From: an uncultured Bacteroidales bacterium
GTDB taxonomy: Bacteria; Bacteroidota; Bacteroidia; Bacteroidales; P3
NCBI GenBank assembly: GCA_937906975.1
Contig: CALCUN010000192.1
Location: 1 to 17,692 of the forward strand
DNA: 17,692 bases
Direction of reading: 5' to 3'
Both the position numbers and the translations under genes were made by a program. The notes beneath the pieces were generated by a model. It had not been told where the DNA came from. It saw nothing but the letters and a program-made list of their open reading frames with translations, and did no database searches. Positions 112 to 16,224 of this stretch are shown here, piece after piece. Every line of letters starts with the position of its first letter. Position 1 is the stretch's first letter.

Positions 112-666
112 TTGATGGCAGATGCAGTATGTGACAATAATGAAAATGCAATACTTGCTTTATCAATAGCAATGAATCTTGGTGTAAGTGAATATGAATT
201 AAGAGCTTCTTTAAAATCATTTAAAGGTATGAAGCGAAGATTTGACTTGCAATTAAAAACACAAGACACAATATACTATGATGACTATGCTCACCACCCA
301 GAAGAAATCGAAGCAACAATTACATCATTAAAACACTTGCACCCAAATAAAAGAATATGTGGTATTTTTCAACCACATTTGTATTCAAGAACAAGGGACT
401 TTGCAGATGAGTTTGCAAAAGCATTAGAACATTTAGATGATATAATACTAATACCAATCTATCCAGCAAGAGAAGAACCAATAGCAGGAATAACTTCTAA
501 AACTATTTTGCATAAGATAAATAAAATGGATAAGTATCATGTGACAAAAGAACAGTTATTTCCATTGTTGTCTGCACTTGAGCCACAACTATTAGTTACA
601 CTTGGAGCAGGGGATATAGATCAATTAGTAGAGCCAATAACACAATTTTTAAAAGATAATGAATAA
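112..666 (+). CDS. murC: UDP-N-acetylmuramate--L-alanine ligase, 3' part only
   Basis: MurC joins L-alanine to UDP-MurNAc in the cytoplasm, the first step of peptide stem assembly in peptidoglycan synthesis. Only the C-terminal Mur ligase domain and the end of the central domain are present: NNENAILALSIAMNLGV corresponds to the PGxHNxxNAxAA region, followed by DDYAHHPEEI, FQPHLYSRTRDFADEF and LTLGAGDID, all typical of MurC. Full-length MurC is about 450-460 aa; only about 180 aa remain. An in-frame stop at 61-63 and stops in the other two plus-strand frames block any extension, so the N-terminal ATPase part is missing. The TTG at 112 and ATG at 115 are merely the first possible starts, not the natural one. 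True murC sequence probably starts around 121-133. The stop overlaps the ftsQ start by 8 bp, as expected in a division operon. Confidence 0.9.
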   Translation: MMADAVCDNNENAILALSIAMNLGVSEYELRASLKSFKGMKRRFDLQLKTQDTIYYDDYAHHPEEIEATITSLKHLHPNKRICGIFQPHLYSRTRDFADEFAKALEHLDDIILIPIYPAREEPIAGITSKTILHKINKMDKYHVTKEQLFPLLSALEPQLLVTLGAGDIDQLVEPITQFLKDNE

Positions 667-1414
667 GACGATAAAATTTCTACTATTAGTAATAGGATTA
701 TTAGCACTTGTCATCGTAGCGAATATTACGATGAAGAATCTTAATGTGTCTAAAGTAGAAATTGAAATGAACTACAAAACTGCAGATAGACTAATTTATA
801 AAGAGCAAGTACATTCATTACTCTCAAAAAAATATGGAGATTTTACTAATTATAAAAGAAAAGAAATAGAAACAGAGGAAATTGAAAATTTCTTAAGAGA
901 AAAGAATCTAATATATTCAGTAGATGTATATCTAAATTTGTTAGGTACACTTAAAATAGATATAGTTCAGAATTCGCCAATATTGAGAATATTTACAGAA
1001 AACAAACAATACTATATAGACGAAGAGGGTAATGTTTGTAATACAATAAAGAACAAAGCTGCAGATGTGATTATCGTAAACGGAAATATTAGAGAAGCAC
1101 TGAAAGGAATTAAAACAATAGATTCAGTAAAAACACCTATTACTTATGATATACATAAACTTGTTTTGAAAATAGAACAAGACTCAATTTTAAGAAATCA
1201 AATAGATCAAATCTATTATGATAAACAAAGAGGATTTGAGTTGTTGCCAAAAATAGGAGATTATGTAATCAAAATAGGAAAGATGGAAAAAATCGATGAG
1301 AAACTAATAAAACTAAACAATCTATATAAAGAGGGTTTTTCAGAATTTGGCTGGGATAACTATAGTGAAATAAAATTAGAATTCGAAGGACAAGTAGTTT
1401 GCGTAAGAAAGTAA
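659..1414 (+). CDS. ftsQ: Cell division protein FtsQ
   Basis: FtsQ is a single-pass inner-membrane divisome protein with a periplasmic POTRA domain that links early and late division proteins. The 251-aa product has a short basic N-terminus, one hydrophobic segment at about residues 6-24, then a POTRA-like region (about 30-100, including YSVDVYLNLLGTLKIDIVQNSPILRIF) and a beta domain ending in LEFEGQVVCVRK. Sequence identity among FtsQ proteins is low, so the call rests on this architecture plus position between murC and ftsA, the standard Bacteroidetes order. Its ATG overlaps the murC end by 8 bp, suggesting translational coupling. ftsA follows after 22 bp. Confidence 0.92.
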   Translation: MNKTIKFLLLVIGLLALVIVANITMKNLNVSKVEIEMNYKTADRLIYKEQVHSLLSKKYGDFTNYKRKEIETEEIENFLREKNLIYSVDVYLNLLGTLKIDIVQNSPILRIFTENKQYYIDEEGNVCNTIKNKAADVIIVNGNIREALKGIKTIDSVKTPITYDIHKLVLKIEQDSILRNQIDQIYYDKQRGFELLPKIGDYVIKIGKMEKIDEKLIKLNNLYKEGFSEFGWDNYSEIKLEFEGQVVCVRK

Positions 1415-1436
1415 AACAATAAACACAATAAATGAT

Positions 1437-2747
1437 ATGAAAAATATAGTAGTAGGAATTGATGTCGGTACGACAAAAATTGCAGTTTTTATTGCAGAGA
1501 AAAAAGAAAATGATGAGATTCACATATTAGGGATGGGACGTACAGAATCTCATGGAGTAGAAAGAGGTGTTGTAAAAAACATAGAAGATACAGCTTCTTC
1601 CATTAAAATAGCGGTAAAAGAAGCCGAAGAAATGTCGGGAGAAACAGTAGAAGAAGTATATGTAGGAATTGCAGGACATCATATTCGTTCTAAACAACAT
1701 AGAGGAAACATTATAATTAGAGAAGAAGAACACATTATTACAAGAGAAGACGTAGAGCGACTAAAAAACGAACAATACGACATTCTCATGGAACATGGAG
1801 AACAAATAATAGATGTTATTCCTCAAAATTACATTGTAGATAATGATTCTCCAACAATTAATCCAGTAGGAAGAATAGGAAAATGTTTGGCAGGAGATTT
1901 CCATTTAATAACAGGAAATGTAACAAACATACAAAACATTTATCGAAGCGTACAATTAGCAGGATATAAAGTAAAGAAATTGGTATTAGAGCCAATAGCC
2001 TCAGCAGAATCAGTAGTAGATAAAGGAGAAAAAGATGCAGGAATTTGTTTAGTTGATATAGGAGGAGGCACAACCGATGTTGCAATTTTCCATGGAGGAA
2101 TAATACGACACACAGCCGTAATTCCATTAGCAGGAAATGTAATAACAGACGACATAAAGGACTGCTGCTCTATCATAAGATCACAAGCCGAAGCCCTAAA
2201 ATGTAATTTTGGAGCATGTCTTGAAACCTCTACATCAAATAATGAAATTATTTCTATACCAGGTTTTAGAGGAAGAGACCCAAAAGAAATATCAGTACAA
2301 CAATTAATACGAGTGATTAATTCAAGAGTAACAATGATATTAGATCAAGTCTTATATGAGTTAGTAAACACAGGCTACGACAAAAAACTCATAGCAGGCG
2401 TTGTTTTAACAGGAGGAGGAGCAAAAATAAAAGACATAGATAAATACGCAGAATTTATTTTAGGATTAGATGCTCGCATAGGAACCCCACAAGAACATCT
2501 CTCAGGAACAATAACCGAAGAGATGAAACACCCAATGCACGCAACTGGAATAGGATTGATTCTAAAAGCACTTCAAGATTTAGAAGAAAAATTATTAGGC
2601 ACTCCAAAAGAGGAAGAAGAAAAAGAAGAACAGCAACAAGTAGGAGTACAAGAAACTATTGAAGTAGAGCCTGAAAAAAATAGAAAAAGTTTTGTGAAAA
2701 AAATAGAAAAATTTCTTGGAGGCATCATAGGAGAAGGAAAGGAATAG
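1437..2747 (+). CDS. ftsA: Cell division protein FtsA
   Basis: FtsA is the actin-like ATPase that tethers FtsZ filaments to the inner membrane and recruits later division proteins. The 436-aa protein shows the actin-fold motifs in order: phosphate-1 GIDVGTTK (residues 7-14), the FtsA-specific 1C subdomain (about 85-165), phosphate-2 VDIGGGTTDVAIF (206-218) and adenosine motif VLTGGGAK (323-330). After the core comes a Glu/Lys/Gln-rich linker (about 388-413) and a C-terminal amphipathic helix, SFVKKIEKFLGGIIG (418-432), which fits the membrane-targeting sequence. The ATG start gives a conserved MKNIVVGIDVG opening. It lies between ftsQ and ftsZ in one orientation; a 111-bp gap precedes ftsZ, in which I found no exact Bacteroidetes promoter. 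Confidence 0.97.
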   Translation: MKNIVVGIDVGTTKIAVFIAEKKENDEIHILGMGRTESHGVERGVVKNIEDTASSIKIAVKEAEEMSGETVEEVYVGIAGHHIRSKQHRGNIIIREEEHIITREDVERLKNEQYDILMEHGEQIIDVIPQNYIVDNDSPTINPVGRIGKCLAGDFHLITGNVTNIQNIYRSVQLAGYKVKKLVLEPIASAESVVDKGEKDAGICLVDIGGGTTDVAIFHGGIIRHTAVIPLAGNVITDDIKDCCSIIRSQAEALKCNFGACLETSTSNNEIISIPGFRGRDPKEISVQQLIRVINSRVTMILDQVLYELVNTGYDKKLIAGVVLTGGGAKIKDIDKYAEFILGLDARIGTPQEHLSGTITEEMKHPMHATGIGLILKALQDLEEKLLGTPKEEEEKEEQQQVGVQETIEVEPEKNRKSFVKKIEKFLGGIIGEGKE

Positions 2748-2858
2748 TATTATTAACACTTTCCTGTGGAAAACTCTATGAATCTCAATCATTATTGTGT
2801 ATATAAAAAATAGTAATTTTACAAATTGATATATTATTTGTCATTTAAGAATAAAAGT

Positions 2859-4478
2859 ATGGAAGAATTAATGCAATTTGAAAGCGAAATAACAGAAAGT
2901 AATTTATTGAAAATGGACGCACCAAAAGAACAATCCTCATATATAAAAGTATTAGGAGTAGGAGGTGCAGGAACCAATGCTGTAAATCACATGTTCAAGT
3001 GTGGGATACAAGGCGTGGACTTTATAGTTTGTAACACAGACCAAGTATCATTAGACACTTCACCTGTATCAAACAAAATCAAAATAGGAGAAGGCGGGTT
3101 AGGAGCAGGTAATGCACCAGAAATTGCACGTGTTGCAGCAGAAGAAGCAGAAGAAGAAATCAAATCATACTTAGAGCATAATACAAGAATGCTATTTGTA
3201 ACAGCAGGAATGGGCGGAGGAACCGGAACAGGAGCCTCACCTGTGATAGCGAGATTTGCAAAAGAAATACAATTAGAATCAACAGAAGAACAAATATTAG
3301 TAGTTGGAGTAGTAACCTTACCATTTTCATTTGAGGGAAGAAAGAGAAAAACTCAAGCACAAGAAGGTATAAAAAGACTAAGAGAAGAAGTTGATGCCGT
3401 AATTACAATCAACACAGACAAACTAAAAGAATATGGTAACTTTACTATGAGTAAAGCCTTCGCAATGGCAGACGACATTCTTTTAACAGCAGCAAAAGGA
3501 ATTTCTGAAATGATGACAGGAACAGGAAGAGTACATGTCGATTTCAGAGACGTTCAATCTGTTATGAAAAACTCAGGAGTAGCTCTTATGGGAACAGGAA
3601 TTGCAGAAGGAGAAAACAGAGCTATGGAAGCAATACAAGCAGCAACAACCTCAAAACTGCTTAATGATAATGATATATCATCAACAAAGAAAATACTTCT
3701 ATACTTCCTATCATCAGAAGAAAACGAAACACGTATGGAAGAAATAGACACTATTACAACATACTTAGAAGAAGTTACAAATGATGAGGTAGAATACATT
3801 TGGGGTATGGGAATAGACGATACATTAGGAGATAAATTGTCTATAACCTTAGTAGCAACAGGATTTAACTCACAAGAAATCTACACACCACAACAAAGAA
3901 CACCACTAACAACAAGCGTATTATCACAACCAACACAAACAACAGTTGTTACACCACAACCAGTACAAATAGAAGAACCATATATCAAACCAAAACAAGA
4001 AGACGTAGTAATAACTAAAAGGGAAGAAGAAGTAAAACAACCGATAGTTGATACCAGACAAGTAATATCAGTTGATATTAATATGAATCCCCTAACAAAC
4101 ACTACACCAAACACTGAAGCAGCAACAAAATTAACAGGCATTATCTCAGAACCTCAAATAGCTGTGATAACAAAACCAGAAGCACCTGTTGAAATCAAAC
4201 AAGAACCACCAGCACAACAAAAACCAATAGGCTTAAACTTTCCAGTAAACCCAAAACTTACAGTTGAAGAGCGAATGGTAAGAATGCAAAAAATAAGAGA
4301 ATTACTTTCAACAGAAGAAGGAATCAATCAACTCATATCAACCTCACCATTAGAAATGGAAACAATGAATTTTGATCAAGAATACTCACAAACAAATCAA
4401 ACTTCAAACTATTCCATCAACCAAGACGGTCAAGTAGTATATGGAATCAACAAAAGCCTTAACGCTTGCGTAGATTAA
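2859..4478 (+). CDS. ftsZ: Cell division GTPase FtsZ
   Basis: FtsZ is the tubulin-like GTPase that polymerises into the Z ring at midcell. The glycine-rich start of the GTPase core is [15 protein letters not shown] (31-45); the tubulin signature GGGTGTG lies at residues 119-125, and later core segments such as ITINTDKL and the [15 protein letters not shown] helix are present. After the core (about residue 330) there is a long disordered linker rich in Gln, Thr, Pro and Val, then a helix-forming segment [15 protein letters not shown] and a short tail ending NKSLNACVD, the expected place of the FtsA-binding peptide. I chose the ATG at 2859 (539 aa); a TTG at 2826 would add 11 residues with no family counterpart. 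The long linker makes it larger than the roughly 380-aa E. coli protein, as is common in Bacteroidetes. Confidence 0.97.
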
Positions 4479-4497
4479 AACAAGAAACAAAAACAAA

Positions 4498-4929
4498 GTG
4501 AAAGTAAAAATCATAAACAAATCACAACACCCACTACCTGCCTATGAGACAATCTCATCGGCAGGTATGGATTTAAGAGCCTCTCTTGCAGAACCAATCA
4601 TTCTCCAACCAATGCAGAGAGCATTAATCCCAACAGGACTTTACATAGAATTGCCAATAGGCACAGAAGCTCAAATACGCCCACGTTCAGGCTTAGCATT
4701 CAAAAACGGAATCACAGTATTAAACTCACCAGGCACAATAGACGCAGACTATCGCGGAGAGATAAAAGTCCTACTCATAAACCTATCACAAGAACCCTTT
4801 GAAATAAAAGACTCAGAACGCATAGCACAAATGGTAATCAGCCGCCACGAAACCATAGACTGGGAAGAAGTAGAAATACTTAACCAAACCCAAAGAGGCG
4901 AAGGCGGATTTGGCCACACAGGTAAATAA
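4498..4929 (+). CDS. dut: Deoxyuridine 5'-triphosphate nucleotidohydrolase (dUTPase)
   Basis: This trimeric cytoplasmic enzyme hydrolyses dUTP to dUMP and pyrophosphate, keeping uracil out of DNA and supplying the thymidylate precursor. All five dUTPase motifs are visible in the 143-aa protein: AGMDLRA (22-28), PRSGLA (62-67), [10 protein letters not shown] (79-88, with the catalytic Asp and base-stacking Tyr), RIAQMV (108-113) and the P-loop-like [10 protein letters not shown] (133-142). The length is normal for the family. Translation must start at GTG 4498: no in-frame ATG precedes the conserved MKVKIINKS opening. It begins 19 bp after ftsZ and ends 6 bp before prfB, so it is probably cotranscribed with them. 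Confidence 0.96.
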
Positions 4930-4935
4930 AACAAG

Positions 4936-6022
4936 ATGACAGCAGACGAAGCAATAAAAACCTTTCAAGAAAGAGTAGCAACTCTAAGGAGGTGTCTTTG
5001 ACGTAGATACCTTAGAAAAAGACATCAACCAAGCACAAGAAAAAACACAAGCCGAAGACTTTTGGCAAGAACCCAAAGAAGCAGAGAAATTCCTAAAACA
5101 ACTCAGCGAAAAAAAAAGCCGTTTACAATCCTTTCTAACAGTAAACACAGCCTTTGAAGACTTTCAAGTACTAAAAGAGTTCTATGACGAAGGCTCAGTT
5201 GAAGAAGCAGAAATCCAACAAAACATAGAAAGCCTTACAACCCTAATAGAAGACTTGGAATTCAAGAATATGCTCTCCTCAGAAGAAGACAGACTATCAG
5301 CAATCATAACAATAAACGCAGGAGCAGGCGGAACCGAATCCTGTGATTGGGCAAGCATGCTGATGCGTATGTATTTACGTTGGGCAGAAAAGAATAACTA
5401 CAAACAATCACAAGTAGATTACCAAGAAGGCGATGTAGCAGGAATTAAAAGCGTGAGTATAGAAATAGAAGGCGAATATGCATACGGCTATCTCAAAGGA
5501 GAAAGCGGAGTACACCGCCTTGTAAGACAATCACCCTTCAATGCAGCAAACAAACGCCAAACCTCCTTTGCCTCAGTCTATGTATATCCCATCATAGACG
5601 AAAACATAGAAATCAATATCAATCCTGCCGACATAGAATGGGACACTTTCCGTTCCTCAGGCCCAGGAGGACAAAACGTAAACAAAGTAGAAACAGCAGT
5701 ACGCCTACGATACAAACCCGAAAACATAGTAATAGAGTGCCAACAAACCCGTTCACAACTCCAAAACCGCGAAAAAGCAATGCAAATGCTACGTTCGCAA
5801 CTCTATGAAATGGAATTAAGAAAAAAGAAAGAAAAAATAGCCGAAATAGAAGGCAGTAAAAAGAAAATAGAATGGGGTAGCCAAATCCGAAACTATGTCT
5901 TGCACCCATATAAACTTGTAAAAGACGTAAGAACCGGCATAGAAACAACCGATACCACAGCAGTACTTGACGGCGACTTAGAACAATTCATCAAAGCTTT
6001 CCTAATGGAGTACGGAGACTAA
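4936..6022 (+). CDS. prfB: Peptide chain release factor 2, expressed by programmed +1 frameshift
   Basis: RF2 recognises UAA and UGA and triggers peptide release. Reading starts at ATG 4936 and runs 21 codons (ending TLRRCL) to an in-frame TGA at 4999-5001. Slipping +1 at CTT-TGA-C continues as DVDTLEKDI from 5000 without interruption to 6022, giving about 361 aa, the normal RF2 length. The shifted frame contains the SPF stop-recognition tripeptide (about 199-201) and the GGQ catalytic motif (about 244-246, in [18 protein letters not shown]). The N-terminal coiled domain is intact across the join, so this is the classical autoregulatory frameshift and not a mutation: low RF2 lets ribosomes pause at its own UGA and shift. 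The gene follows dut by 6 bp. A second, degraded copy of its 3' end lies near 6851-6915. Confidence 0.97.
4987..5002 (+). promoter_or_regulatory. RF2 programmed frameshift site
   Basis: AGGAGG (4987-4992) lies three bases before CTT (4996-4998), followed by TGA (4999-5001) and C. This is the canonical arrangement: internal Shine-Dalgarno, 3-nt spacer, slippery CUU, poorly terminated UGAC. Pairing of AGGAGG with the 16S 3' end strains the ribosome and promotes the +1 slip on CUU/UUU. The same order is found in E. coli prfB. Confidence 0.97.
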
Positions 6023-6034
6023 GAATTTGTATTT

Positions 6035-6844
6035 ATGAAAAAACAACAAGTTATATATATTGAAGATTCAGTAATAACAATTCTACCTCAAAACAATGAA
6101 GATTATATTTCTCTTACAGATATGGCACATAGCCAAATGCAAGAACATGTAATATTTCGTTGGTTAAGTCTTAAAAGTACAATAGAATACATAGGGGAGT
6201 GGGAATCTTTATACAATCCCAATTTTAATTATACCGAATTCGGTACAATTAAAAATATGGCAGGAAGTAATAACTTTGTGCTTTCAGTAAAAAGTTGGAT
6301 TGAAAAAACCAATGCTATTGGTATTGTTGCAAAGGCTGGAAGATATGGAGGGACTTACGCACATAAAGATATTGCATATCACTTTGGAATGTGGATTAGT
6401 CCTCGTTTTCAATTATTGCTCGTAAAAGAATATCAACGCCTTCAAGAAGAAAAACAGAAATTATTAGGCTGGACAGCAAAACGTGAATTATCAAAAATAA
6501 ATTATCATATACATACAGATGCAATTAAAAAGAATTTAATACCGCAAGAATTAACTCCCCAACAAATATCATATCTTTACGCTAATGAAGCAGATGTATT
6601 AAATGTATCATTGTTTGGAATGACAGCAAAACAATGGAGAGAAGCCAATCCTAATTTAAAAGGTAATATTCGAGATTATGCTACCATAAATGAACTTATA
6701 TGTTTATCAAACTTAGAAAATCTAAATGCAGTTTTTATAAATGAAAATATGCCACAAAACGAAAGATTGGTGAAATTGAATAAAATAGCCATACAGCAAA
6801 TGCAAATTCTTGAAGATACCAATAGAAAATTGTTGTTATCATAG
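6035..6844 (+). CDS. KilA-N domain protein (phage/mobile-element type DNA-binding protein)
   Basis: The 269-aa product carries a KilA-N domain at about residues 20-135: LTDMAHSQMQEHVIFRWL, a variable segment, then GRYGGTYAHKDIAYHFGMWISPRFQL. KilA-N is a DNA-binding fold of phage antirepressors and mobile-element proteins and is related to modules in homing endonucleases. The remainder (about 135-269) is helical, begins with charged coiled-coil-like sequence (KEYQRLQEEKQKLLGW), contains FGMTAKQWREANP and ends in NRKLLLS; I see no nuclease motif. ATG 6035 is 12 bp after the prfB stop, so it may ride on the prfB transcript. Its coding strand has visibly more T than dut and prfB, suggesting separate ancestry. 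A degenerate prfB 3' end follows it directly. The precise role is unknown. Confidence 0.88.
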   Translation: MKKQQVIYIEDSVITILPQNNEDYISLTDMAHSQMQEHVIFRWLSLKSTIEYIGEWESLYNPNFNYTEFGTIKNMAGSNNFVLSVKSWIEKTNAIGIVAKAGRYGGTYAHKDIAYHFGMWISPRFQLLLVKEYQRLQEEKQKLLGWTAKRELSKINYHIHTDAIKKNLIPQELTPQQISYLYANEADVLNVSLFGMTAKQWREANPNLKGNIRDYATINELICLSNLENLNAVFINENMPQNERLVKLNKIAIQQMQILEDTNRKLLLS

Positions 6845-6850
6845 GAATAA

Positions 6851-6915
6851 GGCGTAAACCGGCGTAGAAACCACAAATACCACAGCAGTACTTGACGGCG
6901 ACTAAGAAACCATTA
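6851..6915 (+). pseudogene. Degraded duplicate of the prfB 3' end
   Basis: This stretch aligns to the end of prfB (about 5926-5990). A 27-base identical block sits at 6877-6903 and at 5952-5978, with a clear but imperfect match on its 5' side. In frame it reads [15 protein letters not shown] then TAA, against [18 protein letters not shown] in the intact gene. The I-to-V and D-to-N changes look like divergence between related alleles more than random decay. It has lost the final codons and any start. Together with the prfB end at 6022 it brackets the KilA-N gene, which marks an insertion or gene-conversion event. Confidence 0.88.
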
Positions 6916-6969
6916 AAAAAAACGAATAAAAATAAAGAATAAACGCCTTTTTCTTAAAACTAAACTGCG

Positions 6970-7025
6970 AAATACTTCAAAAATTTTGGACTTTAAAACC
7001 CTAATCCGAAATTTTTGAAGTATTT
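6970..7025. repeat. Long perfect inverted repeat (17-bp arms)
   Basis: AATACTTCAAAAATTT-type arms at 6970-6986 and 7009-7025 are exact reverse complements and enclose a 22-nt loop. The arms are almost pure A/T. It may act as a terminator for the prfB/KilA-N transcript, but only a short T run follows (TTTTGTCTT). It could also be the end of a small mobile element. Confidence 0.7.
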
Positions 7026-7065
7026 TGTCTTAAATAAAATACACTAAATCAAAATACTTAATTTT

Positions 7066-7104
7066 AAAAAGCAAAGAATTCTTTAATTTTTTCTTTGCTT
7101 TTTT
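7066..7104 (+). terminator. Terminator-like stem-loop downstream of the KilA-N gene
   Basis: AAAAAGCAAAGAA (7066-7078) pairs perfectly over 13 bp with TTCTTTGCTTTTT (7091-7103) around a 12-nt loop, and ends in a T run. It is nearly symmetrical (A run before, T run after), so it could stop transcription from either side. It is the best candidate end of the transcript that includes prfB and the KilA-N gene. Confidence 0.6.
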
Positions 7105-7146
7105 AGAATTTTCCTTAGGATTTTTAAATTTTTTCTTTGCTTTTTT
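7085..7146. repeat. 20-bp direct repeat containing a copied terminator arm
   Basis: The same 20 bases (AATTTTTTCTTTGCTTTTTT) occur at 7085-7104 and 7127-7146. The first copy includes the right arm of the stem at 7066-7103; the second could pair with the same left arm, giving an alternative, longer hairpin. Origin could be slippage or partial duplication. Confidence 0.8.
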
Positions 7147-7157
7147 TCTCTCTTAAA

Positions 7158-7226
7158 AAGGGGTGTCAATTTAAACTTACAAGGGGTATCAATTTAACTT
7201 TACAAGGGGTATCAATTTAAATGTAG
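7158..7226. repeat. Three tandem 23-bp repeats (iteron-like or IS21-type end)
   Basis: Units at 7158-7180, 7181-7203 and 7204-7226 are each exactly 23 bp, share AAGGGGTrTCAATTTAA and differ mainly in the last six bases. The first unit has TGTCAATTT; the other two have TATCAATTT. There is no spacer, so this is not a CRISPR array. Spacing of about two helical turns puts the motif on one DNA face, as in protein-binding iterons. From general knowledge, IS21-family elements also carry several short repeats at their ends with a terminal TG; no istA/istB genes and no matching inverted end were seen nearby. Confidence 0.85.
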
Positions 7227-7359
7227 GACATGAATAATAATATAAATAATAACAAAAAAATAATAATATATTTATAACAGAAAGATTTTTTTAGATTTTT
7301 CTTTCATTTACATGTCTTCTTTCTTTTGAAATCAGTGCAAAAACTTAGCGCGCCAAATT
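7227..7359. other. AT-rich spacer, no gene seen
   Basis: Positions 7227-7275 are nearly pure A/T (ATAATAATATA-type runs). The stretch has a 6-bp inverted repeat near its edges (GACATG 7227-7232, CATGTC 7311-7316) and a small hairpin GAAAGA/TCTTTC at 7280-7305. I see no open reading frame with family resemblance. The low melting stability next to the tandem repeats would suit a DNA-unwinding element, but no replication gene is present. Confidence 0.5.
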
Positions 7360-7390
7360 TTTGTGCTTTTAAAAATTTGTTTTACCTTTG
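7360..7390 (+). promoter_or_regulatory. Consensus Bacteroidetes promoter
   Basis: TTTG at 7360-7363, a 19-nt spacer, then TACCTTTG at 7383-7390. This is an exact match to the Bacteroidetes sigma-70-type promoter (-33 TTTG, -7 TAnnTTTG). The start of transcription should fall near 7395-7398. No protein gene starts for about 330 nt downstream, so it drives either a noncoding RNA or a long structured leader before the gene at 7728. Confidence 0.75.
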
Positions 7391-7396
7391 TGGGCA

Positions 7397-7650
7397 GAAA
7401 TTTAAAATGTAAAAAAGGAGGACAAAAAGGAGACAAAGAATAATTATTATTTAGACTTAGTAAATTTTAATACGACATAAAAGCGTTTTTGCTTAAATTT
7501 GGTTACATGAAATCCGCAAAATTTCATTAAAACTTACCAAAAAGTTAAGCGGAAAACGCTCACGAGTAATATCGTGGGCTTTTCTTGTTTGGTAAGTAGG
7601 TAATTGCGGAACCTCATGTAACGATAAGAAAAAAGTCCCACGTTTTTTTA
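7397..7650 (+). ncRNA. Candidate structured noncoding RNA or attenuator leader, family unknown
   Basis: Downstream of the promoter at 7360-7390, positions 7502-7622 fold as a nested rod: P1 7502-7510/7614-7622 (9 bp), P2 7513-7519/7604-7610 (7 bp), P3 7532-7541/7588-7597 (10 bp) and P4 7553-7565/7572-7583 (12 bp with one G-U and one bulge) with a 6-nt loop. About 38 pairs occur in 121 nt. Competing pairings exist: 7573-7583 with 7631-7642, followed by seven T at 7643-7649, would form a terminator and break P3/P4; 7633-7640 can instead pair with 7689-7696. The sequence does not show the conserved segments of tmRNA, RNase P RNA or SRP RNA. A 6S-like rod, a leader riboswitch or a DNA-level palindrome all remain possible. 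Ends are approximate. Confidence 0.5.
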
Positions 7651-7727
7651 TGCCTTGAAGTCAAAGAAAGAAATCATTTATCGCCATTTGGGACTTGGGC
7701 AAAGAAACATTAAAAATAATAAACAAA

Positions 7728-7991
7728 ATGGAACAACAATTTAATCAAAAAAAGGAAGCTCCATACTCAACATTAGCGTTGGTTATGGGTATTTTATCGC
7801 TAACTTGCGGTGGATTTATATGTGGAATCATAGGATTGATTTTTGCAAACAAAGGATTAGCAGAATATAATCAAAATCCTGAATTGTACAAAGGGCAAGG
7901 AATGTTAACAGCAGGAAGAATTATGTCAATTATCGGTATTCCTGTCGGTGTAATTTCTTGGCTTCTTTCTATTATAATGCTGTTTGCATAA
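7728..7991 (+). CDS. Small CCC-motif/DUF4190-like membrane protein
   Basis: An 87-aa protein with a short soluble N-terminus (MEQQFNQKKEAPYSTLAL) and two membrane segments at about residues 15-37 and 62-85, separated by a loop with NKGLAEYNQNPELYKGQG. The pattern of a first helix (MGILSLTCGGFICGIIGLIFA), then a KGL loop and a second G-rich helix is typical of the DUF4190/CCC-motif family of small Bacteroidetes inner-membrane proteins, function unknown. I chose ATG 7728 over an upstream TTG at 7695, which would add 11 residues from within a pairing region. A DUF2752 gene follows, a frequent neighbour of such two-helix proteins. Its promoter is probably 7360-7390, through the structured leader. 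Confidence 0.8.
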   Translation: MEQQFNQKKEAPYSTLALVMGILSLTCGGFICGIIGLIFANKGLAEYNQNPELYKGQGMLTAGRIMSIIGIPVGVISWLLSIIMLFA

Positions 7992-8045
7992 TTGTAATAG
8001 GGATAAAAAATATTTAAGAATAGATTTAATTCTAAAAATATTGAG

Positions 8046-8324
8046 ATGTATGAGCATTTAATGTTACCTTGCATTTATAAACAACTCTTTGGAGTAAGTT
8101 GCCCTTTGTGTGGCTTTCAGCGTTCTGTTGTTTTGTTATTGCAAGGTAACGTTATTGGCAGTTTAGAGATGTTTCCGCCACTTTTTCTTCTGTTGTTTAT
8201 GATTGCTTTCTACCTTATTTCTTTTTTAAGAAAGCAAAAAGTAAATTCAAAAGCGGAAAAAATATTATGGATTATTGTCGGAATTTCTCTAATAGCAAAT
8301 GCAGTGTATCAAAATATCGATTGA
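8046..8324 (+). CDS. DUF2752 family membrane protein
   Basis: A 92-aa protein with the DUF2752 hallmark CPLCGFQRS (about residues 20-28, pattern CPxCGxxR) after a short LYKQLFG-type lead, then hydrophobic helices at about 43-61 and 72-87. The family is found in many bacteria; its function is unknown, and the paired cysteines may bind metal or form a disulfide at the membrane. It starts 54 bp after the CCC-motif gene and ends 25 bp before the lipoprotein, all on the same strand, so the four genes from 7728 to 9792 are probably one transcript. Confidence 0.82.
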   Translation: MYEHLMLPCIYKQLFGVSCPLCGFQRSVVLLLQGNVIGSLEMFPPLFLLLFMIAFYLISFLRKQKVNSKAEKILWIIVGISLIANAVYQNID

Positions 8325-8349
8325 AAGTAACAAAATTAAAACAGAAAAA

Positions 8350-8706
8350 ATGAAAAGAGTATTACTTGTTTTAGCAACAGTTTTATTATTCGCATCTTGC
8401 GACCTTAATTTAGATTTAAAGAAGAGAGGATTTGTCAAAGTCTCAGATTCCGGATGGGCAGAATATTTTGAAGAATGTGAAAACGGAGATACTGAACGCA
8501 ACGGTGGAAATCGCTATATTATATATACCGATGGAGCAACATTTATTGCCGTTAATGACGATGACAACGATGATAGATATATCATAGAAATGGGTCCTTA
8601 TACACGATGGTCAAAGTATATTTGCGGAAGTAGTAGCGAAGAAGAAAGAATAGAATATCAAGGAAGATTTTTAAGAAATGGATGCGAATACTATGTTAGG
8701 TGGTAG
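8350..8706 (+). CDS. Small secreted lipoprotein, unknown function
   Basis: A 118-aa protein with a lipoprotein signal: MKRVLLVLATVLLFASC, so Cys17 would be lipidated. The mature part is acidic and Tyr-rich (DDDNDDRYIIEMG, SSSEEERIEYQGRF) and ends in CEYYVRW. I see no named domain. ATG 8350 is preferred because it places the basic n-region and lipobox correctly; an upstream in-frame start at 8299 would overlap the DUF2752 gene and bury the signal. It lies between the DUF2752 gene and the protease lipoprotein, so an envelope location fits the neighbourhood. Confidence 0.75.
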   Translation: MKRVLLVLATVLLFASCDLNLDLKKRGFVKVSDSGWAEYFEECENGDTERNGGNRYIIYTDGATFIAVNDDDNDDRYIIEMGPYTRWSKYICGSSSEEERIEYQGRFLRNGCEYYVRW

Positions 8707-8751
8707 TTTCTAATATCTGCAAAAACGATTACAGATTAAAAACAAAAAAAG

Positions 8752-9792
8752 ATGAAACAAGGAATTATTTTAGCGTTGCTTGCATTTGTGTTTTTCGGAT
8801 GCAACAAATCTGAACAGGAAATCAATGAAGAATTTTCAAGTGGTGTGGTTTTGATTAAGAATACCGGGTATTACGAAATGAAAATCAGTGATGAAATTTC
8901 TATCTATTTTACAAATTATTCCGAAGAGAATGGTTTGGAGAATTTTACTACTGAAGAAGATTCTATTATTGTATCAACATCGTTCGGAACAGGCTTTTTT
9001 GTGTCGGCAAATGGTGAAATAGCAACAAATAATCACGTTGTATCACCTGCAATGACTGAAAAAGATGCTTTGAAAATAAAGAACAATGTTATAAAAGAAA
9101 CAAAAAATGAACTAAGAGTTACATATAATTATTACGATGAAGCTCTTACGAAAATCAACAATGCTCTTTTGTCATATTTGTTTGCAGATTATTATGACAG
9201 TGATTATTATGAATTAAAAGAGGCAGGAGAATACTGCGAAGAACAGATGAAAGTTTGTTCTCATCTCTTTGATTATTTTAGTGATGTTGATGTTAGCAAT
9301 GTTGATTGTAGTTATATAAATGAAGTAAGTGTTGCTTACAATGATGAATATGTAACATCTGAAACAGATTTCACTCCTTGTGTTTTGAAAAAGACAGATA
9401 CACAAAATGATTTGGCTATTATACAATTGAAAAGTAAGAAAACGCCGGAATCAAGACACGTTTTTGAAATACCAGAAGAAAATCCTATTGAAACTTCTTC
9501 TTTGTTATATCCCGACAAAAACGAAAAACTATTTATGATAGGCTTTAATCTTGGTCCTATGTTGGCTTTAACAAAAGAAGGAGTAAGGTCTCAATGTACT
9601 ACAGGAGCGATTACACAAGACAGAGAAAACAGTTATATGTATTCTATCTCATCTTTGCAAGGTTCAAGCGGAGCTCCTGTGTTGAATCGTAAAGGAGAAT
9701 TAGTCGCAATCAACTTTGCAGGAATTGGCTCTACACAAAATTTTAACTATGGTATTAAAGTAAAATATTTAAGAGAGTTATTGAATAAATAA
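8752..9792 (+). CDS. Trypsin-like serine protease lipoprotein with a large Cys-containing insertion
   Basis: A 346-aa chymotrypsin-fold (trypsin-like peptidase_2/HtrA-type) protease. The N-terminus MKQGIILALLAFVFFGC is a lipoprotein signal with Cys17. Catalytic triad candidates are His95 in GEIATNNHVV, Asp220 in QNDLAIIQL and Ser306 in the GSSGAP box. About 125 residues separate His from Asp, roughly twice the usual spacing; the extra part (about 105-215) is Tyr/Asp/Glu-rich and holds Cys162, Cys169, Cys186 and Cys210. No PDZ domain follows the protease domain, so it is not a full DegP. It is expected to act in the periplasm, anchored to a membrane. It is the last gene of the 7728-9792 group and ends before a strong terminator. 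Confidence 0.88.
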   Translation: MKQGIILALLAFVFFGCNKSEQEINEEFSSGVVLIKNTGYYEMKISDEISIYFTNYSEENGLENFTTEEDSIIVSTSFGTGFFVSANGEIATNNHVVSPAMTEKDALKIKNNVIKETKNELRVTYNYYDEALTKINNALLSYLFADYYDSDYYELKEAGEYCEEQMKVCSHLFDYFSDVDVSNVDCSYINEVSVAYNDEYVTSETDFTPCVLKKTDTQNDLAIIQLKSKKTPESRHVFEIPEENPIETSSLLYPDKNEKLFMIGFNLGPMLALTKEGVRSQCTTGAITQDRENSYMYSISSLQGSSGAPVLNRKGELVAINFAGIGSTQNFNYGIKVKYLRELLNK

Positions 9793-9821
9793 ACCTTTGT
9801 TTAATTTTTCCTAATTCAAAG

Positions 9822-9868
9822 AAAAACGCTCACAAGTCTTTGTTTTATTTTGACTCGCGAGCGTTTTT
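9822..9868. terminator. Bidirectional terminator between converging genes
   Basis: AAAAACGCTCACAAGTC (9822-9838) pairs with GACTCGCGAGCGTTTTT (9852-9868), 15 pairs with two mismatches and a 13-nt loop. Runs of A on the left and T on the right make it work from either side, ending both the protease transcript (+) and proS (-). Confidence 0.88.
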
Positions 9869-9875
9869 TTATTTT

Positions 9876-11354
9876 TTAGTATGCTTTTGCAAATATTACT
9901 CTTTTGTTTGAAGGTTTTCCTGTTAGGATACATTTGCCTTCTTCTTCTACGGCGTCAAATGGTATGCAACGTATTGTGGCTTTTGTTAGTTCTTTGATTT
10001 TTTCTTCTGTTTCTGGTGTGCCGTCCCAGTGTGCTGAGATAAAGCCTCCTTCGTTTTCCAATATATTTACAAATTCTTCCCAAGTGTCTGCTTTTCTTGT
10101 GTTTTCTTCTCTAAATGTTTTTGCTTTTAAGAAAAGGTTTGCTTGGATTTCTTCTAAGAGTCTTTCTATTGTTGCTACTGCATCTTCTACTGCAATGGTT
10201 TGTTTTTCCAAGGTATCGCGGCGTGCGATTTCGCATTTACCTTCTGCTAAGTCTCTTGCTCCCATTGTTAAACGTACAGGTACGCCTTTGAATTCGTATT
10301 CGCTGAATTTCCAACCTGGTTTGTATTCTCTTCTATCGTCAAACTTAACGCTGATGCCTTTTGCTTTGAGTTCTGCTTGTATTCTTGCTACTTCGGCGTT
10401 TATTTTTTCGCATTCTTCTTCTGTTTTGAAGATTGGAACAATCGCTACTTGGATTGGAGCAAGTTTTGGTGGAAGAACCAATCCGTTGTCATCGGAATGC
10501 GACATTATTAAGGCTCCCATAAGTCTTGTACTTACGCCCCAAGAGGTTGCCCAAACGTATTCTAATTTGTTTTCTTTTGATAGGAATTTTACGTCAAAGG
10601 CTTTTGCGAAGTTTTGACCAAGGAAGTGTGATGTTCCTGCTTGTAGGGCTTTTTTGTCTTGCATCATCGCTTCAATACAGTAAGTATCTATTGCTCCGGC
10701 AAAGCGTTCGTTTGGTGATTTCACGCCTTTCAACACAGGCATCGCCATATAGTTTTCTGCAAAGTTGGCATAGACTTCTAACATTTGTTTTGTTTCTGCT
10801 ATTGCTTCTTCTTGTGTTGCGTGTGCTGTGTGTCCTTCTTGCCAAAGAAACTCTGCTGTTCTTAAAAACATACGTGTACGCATTTCCCAACGCACTACGT
10901 TTGCCCATTGATTGCAAAGGATTGGTAGGTCTCTGTATGATTTTATCCAACCTTTGTATGTGTCCCAAATAATTGTTTCTGAGGTTGGACGTACTATAAG
11001 TTCTTCTTCTAATCTTGCATCTGGGTCTGGTTCTAAGCCTTTTGAACCATCTCTTTTTGGTTTTAGACGGTGGTGTGTTACAACTGCACATTCTTTTGCA
11101 AAGCCTTCTACGTGTTCTGCTTCTTTTTCAAAGAATGATTTTGGAATAAATAAAGGAAAGTATGCGTTTTGGTGTCCTGTTTCTTTGAACATACGGTCTA
11201 ATTCATCTCTCATCTTTTCCCAAATCGCATATCCGTAAGGCTTTATCACCATACAGCCTCTTACTGATGAGTTTTCTGCTAAGTCTGCTCTAACTACTAA
11301 TTCGTTATACCATTCTGAGTAGTTTTCAGAGCGTTTTACAAAATCTTTTGCCAT
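9876..11354 (-). CDS. proS: Prolyl-tRNA synthetase (eukaryote/archaeal-like type)
   Basis: ProRS is the class II enzyme that charges tRNA-Pro in the cytoplasm. The 492-aa protein lacks the bacterial-type editing insertion and ends in a C-terminal Tyr (VIFAKAY), both marks of the archaeal/eukaryote-like ProRS used by most Bacteroidetes. Visible motifs are RPTSET (122-127), motif 2 [24 protein letters not shown] (155-178) and motif 3 [10 protein letters not shown]. An anticodon-binding domain follows ([11 protein letters not shown] onward), then the C-terminal domain, in which only some of the usual zinc cysteines remain ([15 protein letters not shown]), normal for this clade. Start ATG 11354 gives the conserved [18 protein letters not shown] opening. 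It faces the lipoprotein gene divergently; a possible -7 element (TATCTTTG on the minus strand, 11448-11441) lies upstream, without a clear -33 box. Confidence 0.97.
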
Positions 11355-11392
11355 ATTTATACAACTTTTTATCTCTATTTAACGTTTGATTA

Positions 11393-11423
11393 TTTGTAAG
11401 ACAAAAAAATATTTGTATTTTTG
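11393..11423 (+). promoter_or_regulatory. Consensus Bacteroidetes promoter for the lipoprotein/barrel genes
   Basis: TTTG at 11393-11396, a 19-nt spacer, then TATTTTTG at 11416-11423, an exact match to TTTG-N19-TAnnTTTG. Transcription should begin near 11430, giving a leader of about 58 nt before the ATG at 11488. It reads away from proS. Confidence 0.78.
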
Positions 11424-11487
11424 TCTTTTCAAATGAGTTGCAAAGATACAAATATTTTATAAACATTTTTTAGAAAAGGAGTGTATT

Positions 11488-12510
11488 ATGAAGATTTATA
11501 GTTTATTTAAAAATTTATTTCTCGCTTTTTGCGGTTTATTTATCTTGTTTGCTTTTAATGGTTGTGGAATACCTATTCCTACAATAGGCTATGACGAGGT
11601 GTATGCTACGAATGTGAAAGAGCATGAGCCGTTTATTGCAGAGGATACTGATAATAAGATTTATCAAGACCCCTCTTACACAAAGCAAAAGGCTCATTAT
11701 AGAGAATTGATAAAGGTTGAAGACAGCATTGCACAATCGGAATCTTTTAATGCAGAAGAATTGCAAACCGAATATGATGTTAATTATGCGGAATTTGATG
11801 AAGAGGATTATTATGATTACGCTTATAGTGCTCGATTGAGAAGATTCTATCACCCTGTGGTGTATAGAGATTATTATGCTGATTATTACACTAACCTTTA
11901 TTGGTACACATACGATCCTTTCTGCTGGGGTACTTCTATTTATTTAGGTTATAGTTGGTGGTACCCATCTTACTATTCTTGGTATTGGGATCCTTTCTAT
12001 AATCCTTATTGGCATTCTCATCACTTCCATCATCACCACCACCATCATCATCACCCTCATTATGATGTTTGTTATTTCAATTCTATGGACTACAATTCAA
12101 ATATGTATAGAGGAAGTTCAGTTGGTGGAAGCATAAAAAGAGCTGGTAATGTTAGTGGAAGTTCTATAAAACAACAAATAACAAGAAAAGAAACTACTGT
12201 AAAACCAACAAGTAGCAAGAAGGTGGTTTATTCTAACAAAGCAAAAAGATACAATAAGCCTACTAATGTGGTTAATCGTACAAAACCAGGCACAGATAGA
12301 GCAGGAAAGGTTTCTACAATTAACAGACAAACAAATAAAAACACCAATTTATTTAACAGATCTAAAACAAACAGCAACAATAACAACAGAACTTTCAACA
12401 GAAGTAATTCTTCTTCAATAAATCGTAGTAGCGGAACACGCTCTTCTGGTAGTTCATTTGGAGGAGGTTCAAGAGGAGGCTCTCGCAGTGGCGGTTCAAT
12501 AAGACGATAG
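11488..12510 (+). CDS. His/Tyr-rich lipoprotein, unknown function
   Basis: A 340-aa protein with a lipoprotein signal (residues 1-25, lipobox FNGC, Cys26). The mature part has four zones: an acidic region (about 35-112), a Tyr/Trp-rich region (about 108-175), a His cluster (176-191; 13 of 16 residues are His) and a low-complexity Ser/Asn/Arg/Gly tail (about 205-340, ending in GGGSRGGSRSGGSIRR). I know of no defined domain. The His cluster suggests metal binding; the basic tail could bind surface polymers or nucleic acid. These are inferences from composition only. ATG 11488 follows an AAAGGAG-like sequence. It has its own consensus promoter and precedes the barrel gene by 30 bp, so the two are likely expressed together at the outer membrane. 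Confidence 0.85.
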   Translation: MKIYSLFKNLFLAFCGLFILFAFNGCGIPIPTIGYDEVYATNVKEHEPFIAEDTDNKIYQDPSYTKQKAHYRELIKVEDSIAQSESFNAEELQTEYDVNYAEFDEEDYYDYAYSARLRRFYHPVVYRDYYADYYTNLYWYTYDPFCWGTSIYLGYSWWYPSYYSWYWDPFYNPYWHSHHFHHHHHHHHHPHYDVCYFNSMDYNSNMYRGSSVGGSIKRAGNVSGSSIKQQITRKETTVKPTSSKKVVYSNKAKRYNKPTNVVNRTKPGTDRAGKVSTINRQTNKNTNLFNRSKTNSNNNNRTFNRSNSSSINRSSGTRSSGSSFGGGSRGGSRSGGSIRR

Positions 12511-12540
12511 TTTAGTAATAAAAAAATAATATTTACAAAT

Positions 12541-13947
12541 ATGAAAAGAATAATTGTATTGGTATTAAGCATTTGTGCTTTTATTGGAGTGAAAGCACAG
12601 AGTGAGGTTTTTCCTTTGTATTTTAGTCAATTGGGATTAGATGGAACGGCTAACTATATGGGTAGAGCAGGAGCGATTGGTGCGGTTGGAGGAGATATTA
12701 TGTCGGCTAATTACAACCCTGCTGGACTTGGTATTTACAGAGTGGCAGAAATGACTTTCTCAACAGGATTAAATTTTGCTTCTACTTCTGCTTTTTCAAA
12801 CGAACTCGGATTGGAAGACGATATGACAAAATTAACATTTGGTAATTTTGGTGTTGTTTTACCTATAAAGGTAGATAAATCTGGTTTAAAGTATATTCAA
12901 ATGTCTTTTGCTATCAATCGATTGAAGACCTTCTCAAATAATATTGCTATGCGTAGAGATGGGTTGAGTAGTTCTTTTATTGATGAAGTGGTAATGAATG
13001 ACATAGTAGAATATAATGATGCAGAAAATGAATTTATCAGAGCAGGCGTTGTGGAATTAGATACAAACACATATAGCATCTCTTCATTCTTTGAAGTAGG
13101 TATGTTTAATCAATTCAGAAGAATTAAATACAGCGGTTCACTCAATGAGTTTTCTTATACTTTATCAGGAAACTTAGGAGATAAATTGTATTTTGGTGTT
13201 ACAGCAGGCATTCCTTTTGCAGATATGACGACTTTGAGCACTTTAACAGAAAGCAAAGTAGATGTAAATGGAGAAACAATAGCAGCATACACCAATACAC
13301 AACAACAAGACTTGTCGGCAGTTGGTGTAAACCTAAAATTAGGAGCTATTTTCAAACCTATCTCTCCTCTAAGAATAGGTGTTGCAATTCATACTCCTAC
13401 TGCCTATTCTGTACAAGACGATTTTTCTTCAATAGTTCAATATGATAACACAGCAGGAAGCGTTGCTCCTACATTCTTCTATGGAATACAAACTCCATTT
13501 CGTTTCTTAGCAAGTACAGCTGTTGTTTTGGGAGATATTTCTTCTTCAATAGCGGGTACAATCAGTGCAGATTATGAATATTCTGACTATTCTATGATGA
13601 GATTTAACTTCACAGAAGATGTGGTTGGCGAATATGAATTTAACACAAGCATAGAAGATATTTTCCGTCCTGCACATACCTTTAGAATTGGAGGAGAATT
13701 GAAGTGTGGTCCTTTTTCTCTTAGAGCAGGATACGCAATGGAAGGAAACCCTTATGTAGAAATTCAAAACGATGCTTCAATAAACTATACTACTTTTGGA
13801 GTTGGATACAGAAAAAGCAAAGTTGGATTTGACTTAGCATACGTTCATTCAACAGGGGATTCAAAATATTATTGGTATGATGGAGCAGAAACAAAGATGA
13901 CTGAGATACACAATATTATTCAAGCAACATTAGTTTTAAAATTCTAA
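12541..13947 (+). CDS. OmpP1/FadL-family outer membrane beta-barrel protein
   Basis: A 468-aa protein with a Sec signal (residues 1-20, cleavage near VKAQ-S). The mature N-terminus resembles the OmpP1/FadL/TodX transporters: SQLGLDGTANYMGRAGAIGAVGGDIMSANYNPAGLGI, with the NPAG turn at 59-62. The rest is alternating hydrophobic beta strands, a C-terminal strand ending in a hydrophobic-Phe pattern (IIQATLVLKF) and Gly-X-Gly turns (FGVGYRKSKVGFDLAYVHS), as expected for a BamA-inserted barrel. FadL relatives import hydrophobic molecules such as long-chain fatty acids or aromatics; the Bacteroidetes members (often annotated as hemin receptor) have unproven substrates. It lies 30 bp after the lipoprotein and 22 bp before thioredoxin. 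Confidence 0.85.
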   Translation: MKRIIVLVLSICAFIGVKAQSEVFPLYFSQLGLDGTANYMGRAGAIGAVGGDIMSANYNPAGLGIYRVAEMTFSTGLNFASTSAFSNELGLEDDMTKLTFGNFGVVLPIKVDKSGLKYIQMSFAINRLKTFSNNIAMRRDGLSSSFIDEVVMNDIVEYNDAENEFIRAGVVELDTNTYSISSFFEVGMFNQFRRIKYSGSLNEFSYTLSGNLGDKLYFGVTAGIPFADMTTLSTLTESKVDVNGETIAAYTNTQQQDLSAVGVNLKLGAIFKPISPLRIGVAIHTPTAYSVQDDFSSIVQYDNTAGSVAPTFFYGIQTPFRFLASTAVVLGDISSSIAGTISADYEYSDYSMMRFNFTEDVVGEYEFNTSIEDIFRPAHTFRIGGELKCGPFSLRAGYAMEGNPYVEIQNDASINYTTFGVGYRKSKVGFDLAYVHSTGDSKYYWYDGAETKMTEIHNIIQATLVLKF

Positions 13948-13969
13948 ACAATAAAAATAAATTATAGTT

Positions 13970-14287
13970 ATGGCATTACAAATTACAGACGCTACATACG
14001 ATGAAATGGTAGCAAAATCAGACAAATTAGTAGTTATTGACTTTTGGGCTGAGTGGTGTGGACCTTGCAGAAAGGTTGCTCCAATTATTGACGAACTTTC
14101 AGGAGAATATGAAGGAAAAGCAGTTATCGGAAAATGTGATGTTGATGGTAATAGCGAAATAACATCAAAATTTGGTATCAGAAACATTCCTACTGTTATA
14201 TTCTTGAAAAACGGAGAAGTAGTTGATAAACTTGTAGGTGCACAAACAAAAGCAGCATTCGTTGAAAAAATAGAAAAATACTTATAA
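13970..14287 (+). CDS. trxA: Thioredoxin
   Basis: A 105-aa cytoplasmic dithiol oxidoreductase. The active site WCGPC is at residues 29-33 in FWAEWCGPCRKVAPII and the cis-proline is Pro74 in RNIPTVIFL. Length and fold landmarks (CDVDGNSEI, FLKNGEVVDKLVG) are standard. There is no signal peptide, so it acts in the cytoplasm, reducing ribonucleotide reductase, peroxiredoxins and similar targets. It starts 22 bp after the barrel gene and ends 10 bp before the DUF58 gene; I see no separate promoter. Confidence 0.96.
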   Translation: MALQITDATYDEMVAKSDKLVVIDFWAEWCGPCRKVAPIIDELSGEYEGKAVIGKCDVDGNSEITSKFGIRNIPTVIFLKNGEVVDKLVGAQTKAAFVEKIEKYL

Positions 14288-14297
14288 TTTCTATTTT

Positions 14298-15224
14298 ATG
14301 TCAGAAGAATTAAGAGACAAGTCTCTGTATAATTCTATTGATTTCAAGACTACTCAAATAGTAGAAGGATTTATGACGGGCTTTCACAAAAGCCCGTTTC
14401 ATGGTTTTTCAGTAGAGTTTGCCGAACATCGTTTATACAACACAGGCGAAAGCACAAAATATATAGATTGGCGTTTATTTGCTCGTACTGATAAGCTTTT
14501 TGTAAAAAGATTTGAAGAAGAAACAAACCTTCGTGCGATGTTTGTTTTGGATTCTTCTTCTTCTATGTTTTTCCCTTTCAATCAAAATTCCAAACCCGAA
14601 GAAAGCAACAAATTTTCTTTTTCTCTTTATGCTTGTGGCGTGATTATGCAAATCCTTTACAAGCAACGAGACGCTTTTGGATTATCTTTTGTTTCGGAAA
14701 ACATAGATTATATTTCGCCAATCAAGACAAATCTTGCACACAAGCAATATCTTTTTACGCTTTTAGAGAATAAAATCAAAGAAAAAGACAAATTCTCTAA
14801 GATTACTTGCATTGACAAAGCTCTGCACTCACTTTCGGAGCAGATACATCGCCGTTCCTTATTTATTATCTTTACAGATTTATTTTCCGATGCTTTTTCT
14901 GTTGAGCAATTAGTGGATTCACTAAGGCATTTAAAGCATAACAAACACGAAGTCATACTTTTTCATGTCTATGACCAGCAAAAAGAAGTGGACTTCAATT
15001 ATCAGATGGGTTATTACCGATTTATTGATGTTGAAAGCGGAAACGAATTGAAAATTAACCCAGATGAAATTCGTAAACAATACACAGAAATCACAAAAAA
15101 TAGATTAGAATTAATCAAAAGCGAATGTAACAAAATGAAAATCGATTTTGTCCAAGCCGACATTAACAAAGGCTTTGACCAAATCCTATTTCCTTTCTTG
15201 ATAAAACGTTCAAAATTAAAATAA
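14298..15224 (+). CDS. DUF58 domain protein (von Willebrand A-like fold)
   Basis: A 308-aa cytoplasmic protein of the DUF58 family. The N-terminal DUF58 signature is present (GFSVEFAEHRLYNTGESTKYIDWRLFARTDKLFVKRFEEETN, about residues 36-77), followed by a von Willebrand A-like domain with a MIDAS-type DSSSSM (85-90) and, later, a FTDLFSD segment. In Bacteroidetes, DUF58 proteins usually accompany a MoxR-family AAA ATPase and the Bat proteins of the aerotolerance cluster. Here neither MoxR nor Bat genes are adjacent, so the copy is detached from that context. ATG 14298 is 10 bp after trxA; the gene ends 6 bp before the exosortase gene, so cotranscription is likely. Confidence 0.9.
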   Translation: MSEELRDKSLYNSIDFKTTQIVEGFMTGFHKSPFHGFSVEFAEHRLYNTGESTKYIDWRLFARTDKLFVKRFEEETNLRAMFVLDSSSSMFFPFNQNSKPEESNKFSFSLYACGVIMQILYKQRDAFGLSFVSENIDYISPIKTNLAHKQYLFTLLENKIKEKDKFSKITCIDKALHSLSEQIHRRSLFIIFTDLFSDAFSVEQLVDSLRHLKHNKHEVILFHVYDQQKEVDFNYQMGYYRFIDVESGNELKINPDEIRKQYTEITKNRLELIKSECNKMKIDFVQADINKGFDQILFPFLIKRSKLK

Positions 15225-15230
15225 ACAACA

Positions 15231-15833: not shown

Positions 15834-16161
15834 CACTTTGCATTTGTCCCCCAAGAGGAGGATTCATTTTTTGAACTCTTGTCTTGCACCTTTTAACTTC
15901 GGGATATTTTTCTAAAATAGCGTTAATTATTCTTCTTGTTAGGTGTTCCAAAAGATGCGAAGGCGTTTCCATTTCCTTTTTTATAAGCTGATAAACATCA
16001 AGATAATTGACTGTGTCATTTATATCATCGCTTTCTTCTGCCAAAGTAGTATCAAGCTCAAATTCACAATCGACAATAAAATTTGTTCCTATTGTTCTTT
16101 CTTCTTCAAAACAGCCATGGTGAGCATAAAACGCCATGGAATTTATACGAATCTCTGCCAT
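15802..16161 (-). CDS. folB: Dihydroneopterin aldolase
   Basis: FolB converts 7,8-dihydroneopterin to 6-hydroxymethyl-dihydropterin in folate synthesis. The 119-aa protein has the family landmarks in order: FYAHHGCFEEER (about 11-22, with the substrate-binding Glu), the VNYLDVYQLI segment (51-60), HLLEHLTRRI (69-78) and the catalytic Lys98 before NPPLGG (100-105). Length is typical. ATG 16161 opens with MAEIRINSM. It is transcribed convergently with the exosortase gene, sharing 32 bp at the 3' ends, and sits downstream of pheS behind a terminator at 16174-16208. Confidence 0.95.
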   Translation of the reverse strand: MAEIRINSMAFYAHHGCFEEERTIGTNFIVDCEFELDTTLAEESDDINDTVNYLDVYQLIKKEMETPSHLLEHLTRRIINAILEKYPEVKRCKTRVQKMNPPLGGQMQSVSVSLEGFRP

Positions 16162-16166
16162 AATCT

Positions 16167-16208
16167 AAAAAAATAGCAACGAAAAATATCAAATACTCTT
16201 CGTTGCTA
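16167..16208 (-). terminator. Intrinsic terminator of pheS
   Basis: TAGCAACGAA (16174-16183) pairs perfectly over 10 bp with TTCGTTGCTA (16199-16208), with a 15-nt loop. On the minus strand the stem is followed by seven T (complement of the A run at 16167-16173), placed just after the pheS stop. It separates pheS from folB. Confidence 0.85.
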
Positions 16209-16224
16209 AATAGGTATTAATAAC

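Follow-up and report, generated by a model that had tools for sequence, protein, structure and literature searches.

How did a lone KilA-N gene come to stand behind prfB, the gene of release factor 2, between two copies of the end of that gene? The question is raised by contig CALCUN010000192.1 of an uncultured Bacteroidales bacterium (assembly GCA_937906975.1), of which 17,692 nucleotides (nt), read on the forward strand and referred to here as the window, were analysed. Our preferred answer, held with moderate confidence, is that a lone KilA-N gene, a single-gene phage-defence candidate of the PADLOC class PDC-S22, inserted behind prfB with a target duplication of about 60 nt or more, of which copy 1 is kept in the intact gene and copy 2 is decaying. 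The observations behind this answer are the duplication itself, the absence of the gene from six congeneric genomes, the same layout at unrelated sites, and two loci with empty relatives.

The intact target gene, prfB, occupies 4936..6022 of the plus strand, with PCRF and RF-1 domains in 5255-6022. Inside it lies copy 1 (5922..5983, plus strand), which is repeated in direct orientation as copy 2 (6849..6908, plus strand); 54 of the 62 alignment columns are identical and there is one 2-nt gap. The ungapped core (5932-5983 against 6857-6908) is 90% identical over 52 nt, and the local alignment score of 82 compares with 25 for the best of 10 shuffles. An earlier note on this DNA had reported an identity of 27 bases between 5952-5978 and 6877-6903, which was found exactly there, as part of this longer imperfect repeat. 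Copy 2 starts 4 nt 3' of the KilA-N stop codon. Regarding its coding content, the earlier note had read 15 residues with two changes relative to intact prfB; the residues and the two changes stand, an immediate stop follows, and intact prfB extends 14 residues past that point. Ending 14 residues early, and with the 2-nt gap near its left edge, copy 2 is thus an incomplete prfB end. We class it as a decaying duplicate from the repeat alignment and from the single prfB end in the stretches of four congeneric genomes described below. A 14-nt stretch, ACGGAGACTAAGAA (6012..6025, plus strand; repeat family D4), resembles the end of both copies. At a guess, the original duplication could have had its right edge here, copy 2 having since lost 42 nt; by the same guess, it possibly reached the TAAGAA just 5' of the KilA-N start codon, and the 42 nt would have been lost from copy 2 between short D4 repeats.

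Only one gene lies between the two copies, the KilA-N open reading frame (ORF) at 6035..6844 (plus strand; 269 amino acids). KilA-N (PF04383, 3e-22) is the sole Pfam family in its product, and the PADLOC profile PDC-S22 matches the protein at nearly full length (3.4e-126; residues 1-264 of the protein, positions 1-269 of 281 of the profile). The G+C content, in segments of 250 nt, is 0.27-0.34 in the KilA-N gene and 0.38-0.44 in prfB. The earlier note had described the insert as a single KilA-N gene without a visible integrase or nuclease motif, and the Pfam search, which found no integrase or nuclease domain, agrees with it; a fold comparison of the protein listed no nuclease, which excludes nothing on its own. 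Terminal inverted repeats at both insert ends, a mark of DDE-type insertion sequences, were not seen among the 25 inverted repeats listed out of 37. Since Pfam gives the KilA-N domain alone, and no restriction-modification genes, the label "long target duplication" is used here for the mode of insertion and not for gene content. PDC-S22 is a candidate class of PADLOC that occurs in Streptococcus suis, according to co-occurrence data in the available passages of PMC12813430. Most likely, the protein uses its KilA-N domain to bind DNA and works against phage or plasmid DNA that enters the cell, a role predicted from the profile match only. Overall, the KilA-N family is present in 109 of 393 sampled Bacteroidales genomes.

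Comparison with the nearest relatives bears on whether the gene was gained. The best prfB DNA matches among 295 sampled Bacteroidales genomes are G298 (94%), G105 (86%) and G208 (77%). The six genomes of the genus of G298 were searched with a query spanning the prfB end, the KilA-N gene and copy 2. The prfB part matched in four of them, the remaining two being without any match, and the KilA-N part had no DNA match in any of the six. The prfB end is single in the visible stretches of the four matching genomes; the contig of G208 shows about 230 nt behind prfB. These KilA-N-free genomes provide the empty sites that the earlier note had proposed to look for, and they bear out its view that the gene was gained at the prfB terminus.

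The window aligns to G298 (locus L145) over 141-6022 and 9864-16435, and the stretch between prfB and proS (6023..9863) does not, except for a short inverted piece. As the insert is the left part of this unalignable stretch, the right edge of the event is not fixable by this comparison. The interval between prfB and proS is a variable spot in its own right (6023-9863 in the window, 7593-12422 in L145, with the piece 7367-7702 inverted). On the 3' side of copy 2 it contains an inverted repeat (6970-7025; 21-nt arms, 95% complementary, 14 nt apart), perhaps a terminator, and at 7152-7221 three tandem copies of a 23-nt unit containing AGGGGTATCAATTT or a near variant. At the other end of prfB, the first frame (4936-5001, plus strand) was seen by eye to continue in the +1 frame at a TGA; some 20 codons are followed by AGGAGG, CTT and the in-frame TGA (4936-5002), which we take to be the frameshift through which release factor 2 commonly regulates itself.

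The same comparison speaks to the explanation offered in the earlier note, that a cassette entered by site-specific integration or homing and brought a functional replacement 3' end, leaving the native end as a remnant. The layout, an intact end, an insert and a remnant end, is what such a cassette would leave. The end of prfB (5920-6022), however, is as close to G298 (97/103, 94.2%) as is the rest of the gene (5255-5919; 622/665, 93.5%), and the proposed separation of the intact end from the rest did not appear against G298; against G105 the end is somewhat lower (83/103, with 575/665 for the rest). In addition, two bases are common to copies 1 and 2 and different in G298 and G105 (GGCGAC against GGAGAA). 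The prfB end therefore seems to be the lineage's own, and copy 2 has the look of a local duplicate in early decay, as judged from the alignments; the prfB end may derive from a donor of the same species. With these identities, and with no integrase or nuclease domain found by Pfam, a cassette carrying a replacement end is very unlikely.

If insertion with a long target duplication is the right reading, other members of the family may carry a similar scar. A direct repeat across the gene was scored at a fixed threshold in 164 distinct loci with 200 nt on both sides, out of 176 KilA-N loci, and around control ORFs, namely other ORFs of at least 200 amino acids in the KilA-N loci and in prfB, xth and hisS loci. 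Of the 164 KilA-N loci 28 have it, and of 356 control ORFs 7 (p 1.3e-9). The raw control count was 9/362; two of these nine came from KilA-N loci that had been fetched again, and dropping both loci gives 7/356. Once dispersed, tandem and simple repeats were filtered out on both sides, with the tandem criterion applied to KilA-N only, the counts are 15/164 and 3/356 (p 5.9e-6). The filter removed L213, L252, L257 and L004, although these are convincing by eye. The repeats in the 28 matches measure 22-167 nt inside the 200-nt flanks, and up to 201 nt in L037; like the 62 columns in the window, the direct copies bracketing the insert are far longer than usual target-site duplications. That the arrangement is an artefact of assembly is scarcely credible: the two window copies disagree at 8 of 62 columns, 10 contigs carry the identical KilA-N protein (P0001), and the same pattern occurs in independent genomes.

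Two further features of the surveyed loci are recorded here. The flanking copies of L045, in a bin named Neisseriaceae, lie at 4929-4960 and 5822-5851 and contain CAGGCAGCCTGAA, which resembles a DNA uptake sequence of Neisseriaceae and may point to entry by transformation. The groups L011-L028 and L019-L042 have up to about 420 nt in common 5' of the gene, with a TTTG-type promoter-like motif just 5' of the start; downstream they are mostly different.

The duplicated sites have a recurrent anatomy. In 12 of 28 loci (6 of 15 after the filter) 0-6 nt lie between the KilA-N stop codon and the second copy, far above the number expected from an even spread (binomial p 8e-10, with a rough null), and in 8 of 28 the first copy ends at most 7 nt from the KilA-N start. 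The genes concerned are unrelated. Copies lie at the 3' ends of prfB (window) and of genes for exonuclease III (L037), cysteine desulfurase (L276), a NuoF-like protein (L074) and hsdS (L213), and at the leader or 5' end of the next gene for hisS (L004), DUF6057 (L080), Bro-N (L254) and hsdS (L063, L068), as well as in L051. Genes of type I hsdS adjoin some of the sites (L063, L213, L252). The host gene keeps one whole copy as far as each locus shows, the gene in L068 running off the end. In three further loci of the family prfB is within reach and does not adjoin the KilA-N gene. The duplicated targets thus do not amount to one recurrent site, and the idea of a cassette targeting prfB is not supported. 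The further 3'-end insertions (L037, L074, L213, L276) do favour the cassette with a replacement end; the leaders and 5' ends at the six other sites tell against it, as does L276, where 97 of 119 comparisons place the relatives nearer to the intact end and 12 nearer to the remnant, with 10 ties.

Relatives with an empty site give the direction of the event at some of these loci. The segments 4001-4858 and 5850-7803 of L080 map side by side on G610 (71%), overlapping in one 52-nt segment; G610 has no KilA-N match, a single copy, and both flanks continuous. L004 compares in the same way with G434 and G424, which have a single segment of about 70 nt, both flanks continuous and no KilA-N match. 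At these two loci, therefore, gene and copy came or went together. For L074, the relative G623 (94%) has one copy and no KilA-N match, with the left flank aligned and the right flank diverged, and for L037 the relative G371 (83%) has no KilA-N match. One copy with both flanks continuous was thus seen in the relatives of L080 and L004, and for the window only the left flank could be aligned.

These loci also bear on a second explanation, in which the gene reached the site in some other way and was later duplicated in tandem together with the prfB end, the second gene then being lost. Tandem genes of the KilA-N family, some of them truncated, do occur in L034 (4266-6885) and L010 (4992-6204), and the sister genome of L037, G322, has a gene remnant and no second copy. 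Against a later duplication speak the empty relatives of L080 and L004, with one copy, continuous flanks and no gene, and the ORF list of the window, which has no KilA-N remnant behind copy 2. We regard it as distinctly unlikely.

Insertion with a long target duplication could have come about by template switching at short homologies, while DNA was being replicated or repaired. The nascent strand would leave the target, copy the KilA-N ORF from incoming DNA and return upstream of its point of departure, so that the stretch between would be made twice; essential target genes would survive because one copy stays whole. Short homologies are present at some junctions: in L004 the beginnings of the KilA-N gene and of hisS have 13 nt in common, the first eight residues are the same in L254, and in five loci homology runs into the stop codon (2, 4, 6, 6 and 10 nt). 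The main rival is a single crossover between the chromosomal prfB and a circle that bore the KilA-N gene together with part of prfB, the part in common ending up on either side of the insert. The outcome would be alike, with a duplication whose length can vary, and the unequal copies (8 of 62 columns differ) fit a donor from a related strain. The donor, however, would have to carry a different gene end for each site, the two bases common to both copies and absent in G298 and G105 are unexpected for a foreign copy, and a copy abutting the stop codon, as in the 12 loci, is not predicted. On balance, we consider a single crossover unlikely.

Several points weigh against insertion with target duplication as we propose it. 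In the window, the right flank of the insert is unalignable to G298, and the left side alone is fixed. The repeat is absent in 136 of 164 KilA-N loci, and 13 of the 28 matches fail the filter, including L034 (a tandem KilA-N array) and L004, L045, L049 and L050 (dispersed), where, as in others, the repeat matches more than two times within its own locus; L203, L279 and L280 pass the filter but are short or weak. RhuM, used as an accessory-gene control, has the repeat in 3 of 26 testable loci out of 30 (Fisher p 0.35 against KilA-N), so that neither an excess over acquired genes generally nor specificity to KilA-N is established. L002 carries an orthologous KilA-N gene at the place of L004, whose empty relatives may thus have lost the gene, by loss between the repeats. 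G322, the sister of L037 (91%), bears a truncated KilA-N gene in the corresponding position, matched over residues 7-177; at L037 the copies agree with each other at 96%, and the second with G322 at 87%, so the duplication may be younger than the insertion, or gene conversion may have occurred. No defence activity is known, the available passages of PMC12813430 on PDC-S22 containing no activity test. Finally, the choice of the five loci with homology at the stop codon was itself based on a copy that abuts the stop, and no such homology is present at the window junction; the fit of the junctions to template switching is therefore suggestive only.

Insertion of this kind has been described for other genes. 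Restriction-modification genes insert with long target duplications (Nobusato et al. 2000, as described in passages of PMC3031569, PMC1643837 and PMC3154945), and in these accounts the likeness lies in a transposase-free gene unit between long, variable target duplications and in a one-copy empty allele. As far as the passages go, that mode is known from comparing two Helicobacter pylori strains, whereas here it concerns a single KilA-N gene, mostly in Bacteroidales, and an insert with neither nuclease nor methylase. Another KilA-N-like protein, BstA, acts in abortive infection, and 15 of 72 homologues lie outside prophages, according to the sections available of PMC8585504; the sole PADLOC match of the window protein at E 0.1 is PDC-S22, in a library in which the presence of a BstA model is not established. 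Transposed genes of Arabidopsis have flanking repeats longer than 15 bp in 22 of 126 cases, against 6 of 102 controls, and the repeat is often present at the orthologous empty site; circle recombination with target homology was proposed (PMC2869330, in part). Flanking repeats and empty sites are the likeness to that case, and the plant host and mixed gene families the difference. Our literature searches found no report of insertion with long target duplication for KilA-N genes. The mode being already published for restriction-modification genes, what is new here, within the reach of these searches, is its cargo and its breadth.

The finding would widen the range of insertion with long target duplication to genes other than those of restriction-modification systems, and the family bears on the question of how solitary defence genes move to scattered chromosomal sites in the absence of integrases. 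Since a minority of its sites show a legible scar, the family lends itself to the study of many junctions, ages and empty sites. The whole copy that the duplication leaves may be the reason that insertion is tolerated in genes like prfB and hisS, and the copied flanks around a minority of the relatives are a hint of how single defence genes move without a transposase.
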